From NCBI GenBank assembly GCA_918292005.1, contig CAKJZJ010000002.1, forward strand, positions 28,423 through 92,422: a stretch of DNA of 64,000 nucleotides, in the 5' to 3' direction. Below, piece by piece: positions 59,083-61,941 of the stretch. How positions within the stretch are numbered: the stretch's first letter is position 1; every line of letters starts with the position of its first letter. The stretch comes from Clostridiales bacterium (lineage in GTDB: Bacteria; Bacillota; Clostridia; Christensenellales; UBA1242). A program made the position numbers and the translations under genes. The notes beneath the pieces are model-generated. The model did not search any database. It saw only the letters and a program-made list of their open reading frames with translations, and was not told where the DNA came from.

Positions 59083-59275
59083 AATAAATCCTAGTATAAT
59101 TCCATCATATGCCATCACATATTATCTCTATAACGGGAGAACCCGAATGAACTTACTATTACTTCGGCTCATCAACTAAAAGGTGATACCCATGTTATTA
59201 CTCAAATACAGATTTTCACCCACCATCTGCTCTCTAAAAATCTTTCGTAACCGGACGTGTCCTTTATCATAGTTT
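59083..59275 (-). promoter_or_regulatory. T-box leader of ileS (isoleucine-specific)
   Basis: Reading minus: stem I start AGAGAGCAGATGGTGGGTGAAAA, then GGTATCACC with the specifier ATC (Ile, 59185-59187) followed by a purine, GAGCCGAAG, a stem III of type CGGGTTCTCCCG followed by TTATAGAG, and the terminator. Uncharged tRNA-Ile would favour antitermination. The tRNA-acceptor-pairing T-box sequence (usually TGGTACCGCG) is not canonical; the nearest is TGGAATTATAC. Confidence 0.8.
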
Positions 59276-59300
59276 TTTTATTCTATATGTACCTATAAAC

Positions 59301-60232: not shown

Positions 60233-60507
60233 ACTGTGCTAGGCGGGGAGTTAGTTGTGCCCTATATCCGAAACCAACTATATGCGGAGCGGAACTACTA
60301 CCCTAGGTGTCACTGTGTGATAGTACTATTTATGGTATTGAAATGTTGATATCAAGGTCTTATGCAATACTCTGCTATGAACCATGTCAGGTCAGGGATG
60401 AAGCAGCATTAAGTAGATGTGAGTATGTGCCATAAGGTAGCTTTGAAGTAGTGGAAGATCATAGGTATGCTACCATGCACCATCGAAGGTAGTTGCACAG
60501 TTTTTTT
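60233..60507 (+). ncRNA. ffs: Signal recognition particle RNA, large Alu-containing type
   Basis: About 275 nt. Ends pair (ACTGTGC at 60233-60239 with GCACAGT at 60495-60501) and the last arm plus seven T forms the terminator. Alu domain: GTGCTAGGCGGGGAG near the 5' end and CCTAGG near 60305. S domain: ACCATGTCAGGTCAGGGATGAAGCAGC-like core (60380-60406) that binds Ffh M domain. The capping tetraloop is GGGA closed by UCA/UGA instead of GGAA closed by UCC/GGA, still a GNRA loop. Acts with Ffh in membrane targeting. Confidence 0.93.
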
Positions 60508-60541: not shown

Positions 60542-61537
60542 TTATAACAATTCAATTTTCATATCACTACATTTATCTAGAGTGTCTCTATCCCAATAAC
60601 TAGACTGCACTTCGCCTATATGTGCACGACCTAATAATAGCATGCAGAGTCTACTTTGCCCTATACCACCACCAATAGTTAGTGGTAATTTTTCTTTTAT
60701 TATTGATTGGTGATAAGCATATTCCAATCTTTCTTCCTTATGTGCCTTGCTTAATTGCTGGACTAGTGAATCTTTATCCACTCTAATTCCCATACTAGAT
60801 ATTTCTAGTGCCATATCCAATACAGCATGATAAAATAATAAATCTCCATCCATGCTCCAATCATCATAATCAGGTGCTCTCAAATCATGTGGTTTACCAT
60901 CACTCAAAGCATCTCCAATGCCTATTATAAATACAGTTTTATACTTTTTTGTAATCAAATATTCCCTTTCTTTAGCTGTTTTGTCCGGATACATGTCTAG
61001 CAAATCTTGACTAGAGATAAAATATACATCAGGACAAATATCCACGCCAACAAAGCCTTTGGTTTTTAGATATTGACTGGTATCATAGATTGCTTTTACT
61101 ATCTTTTTTACTGTTCTTTTTAAGTAATCAATAGTCCTATCAGACCTATCGATTATCTTTTCCCAATCCCATTGATCAACATAGATGGAGTGTGTCTCAT
61201 CCATCTGGTCGTCTCTACGAATGGCTGTCATATCTGTATATAGACCTTTGTGCATATCAAAACCATATTTGTCTAATGCAAATCTTTTCCATTTAGCCAG
61301 AGACTGCACTATTTCCAATTCTTTGCCATCTTTTAAAATATCAAAAGATACTTTACGTTCCACCCCACTCAAATCATCCTGTAACCCACTTTCTTTTGTA
61401 ACAAGTAATGGGGCTGACACTCTGGTCAAATCCAGAGCCTTGGACAATTTTCTCTCAAATTTGTCTTTTATTATTTTAATGTATTTTTGCTTTTCCATTA
61501 TGCTCATTTGCACATATTTTTTTTCTATAAATTTCAT
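60542..61537 (-). CDS. asnA: Aspartate-ammonia ligase
   Basis: 331 residues, the family length. Class II tRNA-synthetase-like enzyme making asparagine from aspartate, ammonia and ATP. Visible: RVSAPLLVTKESGLQDDLSGVERKV, DMTAIRRDDQMDETHSIYVDQWDWEK and LPLTIGGGIGQSRLCMLLLG. AAGGAG before the ATG. Its 370-nt leader contains an Asn-rich short ORF, two terminators, a second short ORF, and an anti-SD sequence, so asparagine level likely sets expression. The 3' end faces the SRP RNA gene, with a hairpin at 60520-60541. Confidence 0.97.
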   Translation of the reverse strand: MKFIEKKYVQMSIMEKQKYIKIIKDKFERKLSKALDLTRVSAPLLVTKESGLQDDLSGVERKVSFDILKDGKELEIVQSLAKWKRFALDKYGFDMHKGLYTDMTAIRRDDQMDETHSIYVDQWDWEKIIDRSDRTIDYLKRTVKKIVKAIYDTSQYLKTKGFVGVDICPDVYFISSQDLLDMYPDKTAKEREYLITKKYKTVFIIGIGDALSDGKPHDLRAPDYDDWSMDGDLLFYHAVLDMALEISSMGIRVDKDSLVQQLSKAHKEERLEYAYHQSIIKEKLPLTIGGGIGQSRLCMLLLGRAHIGEVQSSYWDRDTLDKCSDMKIELL

Positions 61538-61543
61538 AATTAT

Positions 61544-61606
61544 TCTCCTTAAATTTGTATTCTAGTAGATTGTAAATTTATATATCTAAAGGAGACTACA
61601 ATCTAC
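61544..61606 (-). promoter_or_regulatory. Anti-SD and hairpin before asnA
   Basis: The asnA ribosome site AAGGAGA (61544-61550) can pair with TCTCCTT upstream (61589-61595). The latter lies in the loop of an alternative hairpin, GTAGATTGTA/TACAATCTAC (61565-61574 with 61597-61606). The two folds could switch translation. Confidence 0.55.
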
Positions 61607-61617
61607 CAAATATCTCC

Positions 61618-61671
61618 CTAGAAATAGCCATTATTATCTTCTTCGCCCGCTACGGCATTAATTTCCCCCAT
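61618..61671 (-). CDS. Second short ORF in the asnA leader (17 codons)
   Basis: ATG at 61671 with AAGGAG seven bases upstream; peptide MGEINAVAGEEDNNGYF, with three Asn in 17 codons, stop at 61618-61620. It lies between the tandem terminators and the anti-SD hairpin. Its translation could control folding over the asnA ribosome site. No other role suggested. Confidence 0.5.
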   Translation of the reverse strand: MGEINAVAGEEDNNGYF

Positions 61672-61693
61672 ACCCAACTCCTTATATGTTTAA

Positions 61694-61730
61694 TCAAAAA
61701 ATAACACACTCTACCAAGCGAGAGTGTGTT
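61694..61730 (-). terminator. asnA leader terminator 2
   Basis: AACACACTCT/AGAGTGTGTT perfect 10-bp stem, then ATTTTTTGA on minus. Confidence 0.85.
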
Positions 61731-61740
61731 TATAAATTTT

Positions 61741-61777
61741 AAAATAAAAACACTCTCTTGAGTTTCAAGAGAGTGTT
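61741..61777 (-). terminator. asnA leader terminator 1
   Basis: AACACTCTCTTGA/TCAAGAGAGTGTT perfect 13-bp stem with 3-base loop, then TTTATTTT on minus; 22 bp after the leader peptide stop. Shares the ACACTCT core with terminator 2, so arms of the two may pair alternatively. Confidence 0.85.
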
Positions 61778-61798
61778 GAATTTAATATTTTTATACGC

Positions 61799-61882
61799 TT
61801 AGATTTTTTCAACAACAAAAATGAAACCCATACAATATGCGTTTAAATTATTATTGTTGTTATTATTAATTAGTCTAAACAT
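61799..61882 (-). CDS. Asn-rich leader peptide of asnA (27 residues)
   Basis: ATG at 61882 with AAGGGG eight bases upstream, stop at 61799-61801. The peptide is MFRLI, then seven consecutive Asn (AAT AAT AAC AAC AAT AAT AAT), LNAYCMGFIFVVEKI. A -35/-10 pair gives a start point about 25 bp before the ATG. The Asn run just before tandem terminators and the asparagine synthetase gene fits a classical attenuation leader: a ribosome stalled for lack of Asn-tRNA would alter folding of the hairpins downstream. Confidence 0.85.
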   Translation of the reverse strand: MFRLINNNNNNNLNAYCMGFIFVVEKI

Positions 61883-61912
61883 AATATTACCCCTTAATCA
61901 AATTACATAGTC

Positions 61913-61941
61913 ATTGTATCACAATATAAAATTTTTGTCAA
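61913..61941 (-). promoter_or_regulatory. asnA promoter
   Basis: TTGACA (61936-61941), 17 bp, TACAAT (61913-61918) on minus. Confidence 0.88.

Follow-up and report, generated by a model that had tools for sequence, protein, structure and literature searches.

A leader ORF with seven consecutive asparagine codons probably places asnA under ribosome-mediated transcription attenuation in a family of Clostridia

The attenuated amino-acid operons of enterobacteria include trp, his, leu, ilv, thr and phe. In Bacillota, such genes are usually preceded by T-box leaders (RF00230), which bind uncharged tRNA directly. A further class, the ermC-type translational attenuators, depends on translation of a small ORF, which exposes a hidden ribosome site. 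In addition, the excerpted text of PMC6123439 reports ribosome-mediated attenuation of ilv in S. aureus and L. monocytogenes, and that of PMC8632094 describes the uORFC-8-2 motif, which precedes cysS in Rhodobacterales and for which ribosome-mediated attenuation has been proposed.

Here we describe the leader of asnA in a 64,000-nucleotide stretch of DNA from a Clostridiales bacterium (the window). We consider asnA to be under ribosome-mediated transcription attenuation with a probability of about 0.88. Because the leader joins a run of Asn codons to switching hairpins, the cell can probably sense Asn shortage through a stalled ribosome. The initial annotation had already read this leader as an attenuator, and comparison of the leaders of relatives supports that reading. 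The relatives belong to a family of Clostridia with small genomes, where genes for the synthesis of asparagine or of Asn-tRNA frequently follow a leader of this type.

All elements of the locus lie on the minus strand. The regulated gene, asnA (60542..61537), encodes an aspartate--ammonia ligase that matches TIGR00669 with 336 bits (cutoff 292.8), confirming its annotated identity. A large bacterial SRP RNA (60234-60500, plus strand, 152.3 bits) adjoins the 3' end of asnA on the opposite strand. The annotated sigma-70-type promoter, TTGACA-N17-TACAAT, with a TG before the second hexamer (61913..61941), has 11 of 12 matches and the top score among 25 promoter-like sites in a 3.6-kb stretch; since shuffles hold 20.2 such sites, the promoter is not significant by itself. 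Downstream of it, the ribosome site AAGGGG (61895-61890) and the 27-codon leader ORF1 (MFRLINNNNNNNLNAYCMGFIFVVEKI, 61799..61882) stand as annotated, forming a small ORF with a ribosome site near the transcript start, for which translation is predicted from sequence. ORF1 contains seven Asn codons in a row (61847..61867), the proposed sensor, and the run is kept in relatives. Runs of seven AAY codons occur in 0 of 100 dinucleotide shuffles of the window, and the run is a single occurrence in the 1.2 Mb genome, where a reversed control pattern also has one match. When the window was searched for short ORFs that have a ribosome site and encode four consecutive identical residues, two were found: ORF1 and one with a Leu run at 59147 (plus strand).

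Three RNA segments follow one another in and after ORF1. Segment 1 (61837..61861; AACAACAA at 61861-61854 and AAACGCAT at 61844-61837) can pair with segment 2 (ATGGGTTTC...TTGTTGTTGAA, 61808..61831), which alignment and folding mark as the partner of either segment 1 or segment 3. Segment 1 contains Asn codons, so the sensor overlaps in part with the first pairing arm. Segment 3 (TTCAACA...GAAACTC, 61760..61780), the antiterminator partner, includes the 5' arm and loop of terminator 1, an intrinsic terminator before the structural gene with a perfect 13-bp stem and a T tail (61777-61749). The perfect 10-bp hairpin of terminator 2 (61730-61703) follows with a T-rich tail; both hairpins agree with the initial annotation. 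In the 3.6-kb stretch, seven terminator-like sites were found, against 0.9 in shuffles. Between terminator 2 and asnA lies a second leader ORF, ORF2 (MGEINAVAGEEDNNGYF, 61618..61671), with the ribosome site AAGGAG (61683-61678) and an Asn codon, AAT (61659-61657), directly followed by the hairpin GCC-GTAGCG-GGC (61656-61645). ORF2, a coupling between terminators 1 and 2 and a possibly hidden asnA ribosome site, all discussed below, go beyond what had been annotated.

From these elements we infer how stalling, timing, a cascade of terminators in the cell and the action of ORF2 would fit together. ORF1 would be translated while the leader RNA is being made. With ample charged Asn-tRNA, the ribosome would reach the stop codon, segment 2 would be covered or paired with segment 1, and terminator 1 would form, leaving asnA untranscribed; since terminator 1 uses up its own 3' arm, terminator 2 could form too. 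With scarce Asn-tRNA, the ribosome would stall on the Asn run, covering segment 1, so that segment 2 would pair with segment 3 as the antiterminator. The freed 3' arm of terminator 1 would then pair with the 5' arm of terminator 2, and both terminators would be undone together. Further downstream, ORF2, with its Asn codon joined to a GC hairpin, would serve as a second sensor.

AsnA was found in 33 of 309 genomes of the family, and 30 loci were taken into the survey; two cut by contig ends (L033 and L040) were excluded, leaving 28 assessable loci. A homologous Asn-run leader precedes 20 of these, another Asn-rich leader precedes four (L005, L018 and L042, and weakly L038), and no leader is visible in four (L032, L035, L037 and L039). 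At L005, L018 and L042, the Asn-rich small ORFs before asnA lie outside the reach of our covariance model, R1; terminators were found in the leaders of L005 and L042, and that of L018 by eye. These three leaders either have a separate origin or have diverged fast. One asnA leader, L022, carries Asp in its run (NNNFNNNDLD). At L031 and L041, a further gene, gene X, stands between the leader and asnA; these two leaders were taken from L066 and L053, sequences that cover the same places. Gene X (L053:775-1536, L066:6333-7088) encodes weakly similar proteins between leader and asnA in two genomes, and these are without a Pfam or NCBIfam match. In other families of the order, all 12 asnA loci (L006-L017) are without an Asn-run leader, taken as any small ORF within 450 bases that encodes three consecutive Asn or four consecutive Asn/Asp residues, and R1 matched three of 396 order genomes, every one in the family of the window. 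Related contigs in a named collection belong to uncultured Clostridia, including Candidatus Caccopulliclostridium gallistercoris.

The leaders were compared in an alignment of 22 sequences, A1, comprising the 20 homologous leaders plus L048 and L056 from a scan of a genome collection for ORF2; L005, L018, L038 and L042 were too different to be aligned. The initial annotation had proposed to test whether the Asn runs and both hairpins are conserved upstream of asnA in relatives. In the alignment, Asn runs and hairpins are conserved and the terminator and antiterminator covary, but not all leaders have the second hairpin, which occurs in 13 of 22. Terminator 1 is 91.1% paired with 28 changes on both sides of the helix, and the antiterminator formed by segments 2 and 3 is 89.5% paired with 11 such changes (0 of 500 shuffles in either case); both exceed every slid version of themselves on paired percentage and on both-side changes. 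In one leader (L028), the T tail of terminator 1 is lost. The helix of segments 1 and 2 is paired in 96.1% of cells and barely varies; its paired percentage is reached in 98 of 500 shuffles and its both-side changes in 27 of 500, and versions slid by +2 and +3 surpass it in both-side changes. This helix is not set apart by covariation. The ORF1 peptide past the Asn run is not conserved, and in many leaders the stop codon precedes segment 2, with the RNA segment kept. Along with the helices, the leaders keep their start sites, their reading frames and the identity of the Asn/Asp codons. Taken as sequence, the relatives display the ORFs, the helices, their covariation and the gene association.

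The antiterminator and terminator 1 are close in stability, with median duplex energies of -14.9 and -16.6 kcal/mol, respectively, across the 22 leaders and -17.2 and -17.5 kcal/mol in the window leader. In 20 of 22 leaders, at least 95% of shuffles give a weaker duplex than the antiterminator. We folded transcripts of the 22 leaders cut at the terminator 1 loop, with ribosome masks applied. At least half of the antiterminator formed in 0 of 22 free cut transcripts; when a ribosome occupied the third or the fifth Asn codon, the count rose to 16 or 17 of 22. Among the stalled folds, L027 and L036 were without the antiterminator, as was L022 at the third Asn codon, and L023, L034 and L066 formed five or six of its 14 pairs. 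With the ribosome at the stop codon, half of the antiterminator persisted in 9 of 22 cut transcripts. In free cut transcripts, the helix of segments 1 and 2 reached at least eight of 15 pairs in just 7 of 22. In equilibrium folding of the full-length window leader, terminator 1 wins under every ribosome mask, so the switch must be kinetic, with timing needed. As a separate observation, the ORF1 start region is able to pair with the linker that leads into terminator 1 (61896-61778, minus strand); in 14 of 22 leaders this pairing ranks within the top 5% of the shuffle distribution, and it might shut ORF1 if no ribosome has started.

Terminators 1 and 2 appear to be coupled. Terminator 2 is found in 13 of the 22 leaders, in one of them (L021) by eye. 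In the window, its 5' arm (61727-61720) is complementary to the 3' arm of terminator 1 (61757-61750). This complementarity accounts for the ACACTCT core that the initial annotation had noticed in both hairpins. In 13 of 13 leaders, it exceeds that of at least 96% of 300 shuffled arms, and in just 6 of 20000 permutations do swapped arm pairs do as well as the leaders' own. The shared sequence may derive partly from duplication. Duplication alone is inadequate, because in L019, L024 and L056 the terminator 2 arm fits the 3' arm of terminator 1 better than a copied 5' arm would, and in L066 both coupled arms are altered (GTTGGTG with CGCCAAC).

Leaders of this type also precede other genes. A search of the 309 family genomes with R1 gave 51 matches in 46 genomes; one, antisense over an asnA leader (G079, plus strand), was discarded, leaving 50 sense matches. 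These precede asnA (21, two via gene X), genes for non-discriminating AspRS (18) or bacterial AspRS (4), gatC-gatA (5), one unknown protein (L108) and one contig end (L125), so that 48 of 49 assessable matches stand before asnA, an AspRS or gatCA. Five synthetases (L096, L104, L105, L118 and L123) and the GatA of L107 were named by NCBIfam, the other synthetases and GatA proteins by blastp against these, and gatC by eye. At L108 (1391-2173), the attenuator with ORF2 precedes the gene for a 261-aa protein; the same genome (G227) carries the leader at asnA as well. At L116, a 359-aa ORF from base 2125 (plus strand) follows the AspRS gene and is 25% identical to non-discriminating AspRS. In the genome of the window, which has an AsnRS (L151) and a bacterial-type AspRS match (L152, 579-aa frame), the sole R1 match is the asnA leader, and no leader was seen by eye upstream of asnS.

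The codons of these leaders vary with the gene that follows. Five to ten Asn residues are encoded by ORF1 in 28 of 29 non-asnA leaders; the remaining one, L123, before a non-discriminating AspRS, is Asp-rich (N2, D4) and occurs in a genome (G213) where an Asn leader precedes asnA. Both tRNAs are substrates of non-discriminating AspRS, and Asp falls within the run in seven of the 18 leaders before its genes (L098, L099, L101, L113, L114, L116 and L117). At the edge of the run, Asp is found in L106, also before a non-discriminating AspRS, and in L105, before a bacterial AspRS; none of the five gatCA leaders has Asp in the run. The leader codon mix thus tends to match the tRNAs served by the downstream enzyme.

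ORF2 was found in 20 of 22 asnA leaders and 17 of 29 other leaders (37 in all), with a common plan of ribosome site, in-frame start, Asn codon and GCC-(4 to 8 nt)-GGC. The GCC/GGC and frame features are partly so by construction, because the ORF2 searches required GCC and GGC and admitted a start codon only if it was in frame. A freer pattern that left codon and frame open and fixed most of the hairpin, with other hairpin versions uncounted, gave 21 distinct sites in the 309 genomes, 19 with AAY and two with GAY, and the first ATG is in frame at 20 of 21; the reversed control gave no match in the same genomes. In the genome-collection scan, 28 stretches carried the ORF2 motif; 15 are from low-GC Clostridia, all before asnA or gene X-asnA, and the other 13 (51-70% GC) were taken as chance. 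By eye, the leaders that gave no ORF2, apart from L122, have the gene almost immediately after terminator 1.

Asp replaces the Asn codon of ORF2 in L098, L101 and L123, all before non-discriminating AspRS. In 11 of 37 leaders the third base of this codon is C, always with a G after GGC. Since 35 of 37 leaders have that G, the C-G cases support a closing pair weakly; L109 and L112 have A opposite U. Sixteen example hairpins have fold energies of -3.8 to -10.5 kcal/mol. The peptide N/D-AVAG is encoded in 27 of 37 leaders and differs in ten (NALAG, NAVTG, NACGG, NAPKG, NARWG, NALLG, NALVG and NAHGG), with GCC...GGC kept. A role for ORF2 as a conserved peptide was dropped given these variants, and pairing of the motif with the tRNA 3' end finds no support in the commonest loop. 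Given its codon and GC hairpin, ORF2 probably acts as a second sensor. More tentatively, it could be a new kind of aminoacyl-tRNA sensor, in which the third base of the Asn or Asp codon closes the GC hairpin, making a two-stage switch with ORF1. If so, one amino acid would be read twice, for transcription first and then for translation or RNA stability.

In a subset of leaders, that of the window genome among them, possible pairings near the asnA ribosome site suggest an action of ORF2 on translation. A helix, X (X5 61606-61597, X3 61574-61565), holds in its loop an anti-SD sequence (2', 61594-61586) able to pair with the asnA SD (3', 61553-61545). Across the 12 leaders picked for showing ribosome-site pairings, helix X has 17 changes on both sides (0 of 500 shuffles), and the pairing between anti-SD and asnA SD is mostly invariant, with no both-side change. 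Helix X and the SD pairing would possibly form an H-type pseudoknot that hides the asnA ribosome site in these 12 leaders. Alternatively, the anti-SD may pair with a second copy of the SD sequence, with which ORF2 ends (1', 61622-61614); this pairing has three both-side changes (9 of 500 shuffles) and is not clearly above slid versions. Because these pairings were not seen by eye in the remaining eight of the 20 asnA leaders with ORF2, the possible switch (61545..61622) is an addition rather than part of the core.

Other explanations of the leader account for some of its features. Nascent-peptide arrest of the TnaC-like type, in which the ORF1 or ORF2 peptide would stall its own ribosome on free asparagine and codon supply would not be sensed, could draw on the recurrence of N/D-AVAG in ORF2. 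We regard it as improbable, since ORF1 is unconserved as a peptide past the Asn run and often stops before segment 2, the ten variant ORF2 peptides keep the hairpin, and Asp substitutes for Asn in some leaders of non-discriminating AspRS. Control of the terminator by a protein or small molecule bound to the leader RNA, with the ORFs incidental, would suit the strong conservation of the switching helices and the presence of a conserved GC hairpin in ORF2. The preservation of starts, frames and Asn/Asp identity together with the helices, and the lack of any Rfam regulatory family at gathering score on the asnA leader, make such a factor very unlikely.

Two further explanations have almost no probability. 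An unrecognised or degenerate T-box at asnA would be in keeping with the four T-box matches in this genome, all below cut-off. One of these is at ileS (59107-59279, minus strand), where the initial annotation had placed a T-box: the match has an E-value of 6.7e-14, but its 68.1 bits fall below the Rfam gathering score of 93. At the asnA of the window, where the annotation had seen no T-box motif, no match appears at E up to 5. None reaches the gathering score in 18 other asnA loci, a weak negative because the T-boxes of this genome all score below that threshold. The other explanation, two ordinary terminators and a chance Asn run with no regulation, gains from the fact that terminators are common here, a separate one (61983-61952, minus strand) ending the upstream 595-aa gene and parting it from the asnA promoter. 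That promoter, however, sits between the upstream terminator and ORF1, and the conservation, covariation and gene association in the compared sequences in effect refute this explanation. Separately, a candidate PyrG leader (RF02371) was rejected as a weak match (30.4 bits against a gathering score of 65).

On the attenuation reading, sensing by leader peptides would extend to asparagine, with aspartate mixed in, and would exist alongside T-boxes in this lineage. The leader tracks a pathway rather than one gene, preceding asnA in some genomes and AspRS or gatCA in others, and the regulon amounts to a natural experiment on a regulatory RNA changing both gene and codons. A search of open-licence PMC literature (titles and the starts of abstracts) found no Asn leader peptide.

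At the sequence level, ORF1 with terminator 1 has the marks of a ribosome-mediated attenuator, and we class it there as a variant with new amino acids, new genes and added stages. Like the enterobacterial attenuators, which have mutually exclusive 1:2, 2:3 and 3:4 helices, the asnA leader combines a leader ORF, predicted to be translated and carrying a run of end-product codons, with a terminator before the gene and an antiterminator that excludes it; a 1:2 helix is a candidate here, highly paired but with little covariation. It differs from them in its proposed sensing of Asn (and Asp), in preceding asnA, AspRS and gatCA, and in having a second terminator tied to the first, an ORF2 and possibly a hidden ribosome site. 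T-box leaders likewise sense tRNA, and one is present at ileS, but none was found at asnA. The ermC-type feature is our proposal for ORF2 in 12 leaders; unlike ermC, the ORF2 case is without an antibiotic and its pairing is proposed to be a pseudoknot. The uORFC-8-2 motif resembles the leaders described here in that ribosome-mediated attenuation is proposed for a small ORF that lies upstream of an aminoacyl-tRNA synthetase gene and carries cognate codons; it differs in its amino acid (Cys) and lineage (Alphaproteobacteria), with no second ORF mentioned in the excerpted text (PMC8632094). The ilv leaders of S. aureus and L. monocytogenes, as excerpted in PMC6123439, are likewise cases of attenuation in Bacillota and differ in sensing branched-chain amino acids. 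The initial annotation had considered a leader of this kind unusual for Clostridia; because ilv attenuation has been described in Gram-positives, the lineage is less surprising than claimed, and what is new is the amino acid sensed, Asn with mixed-in Asp, and the set of genes.
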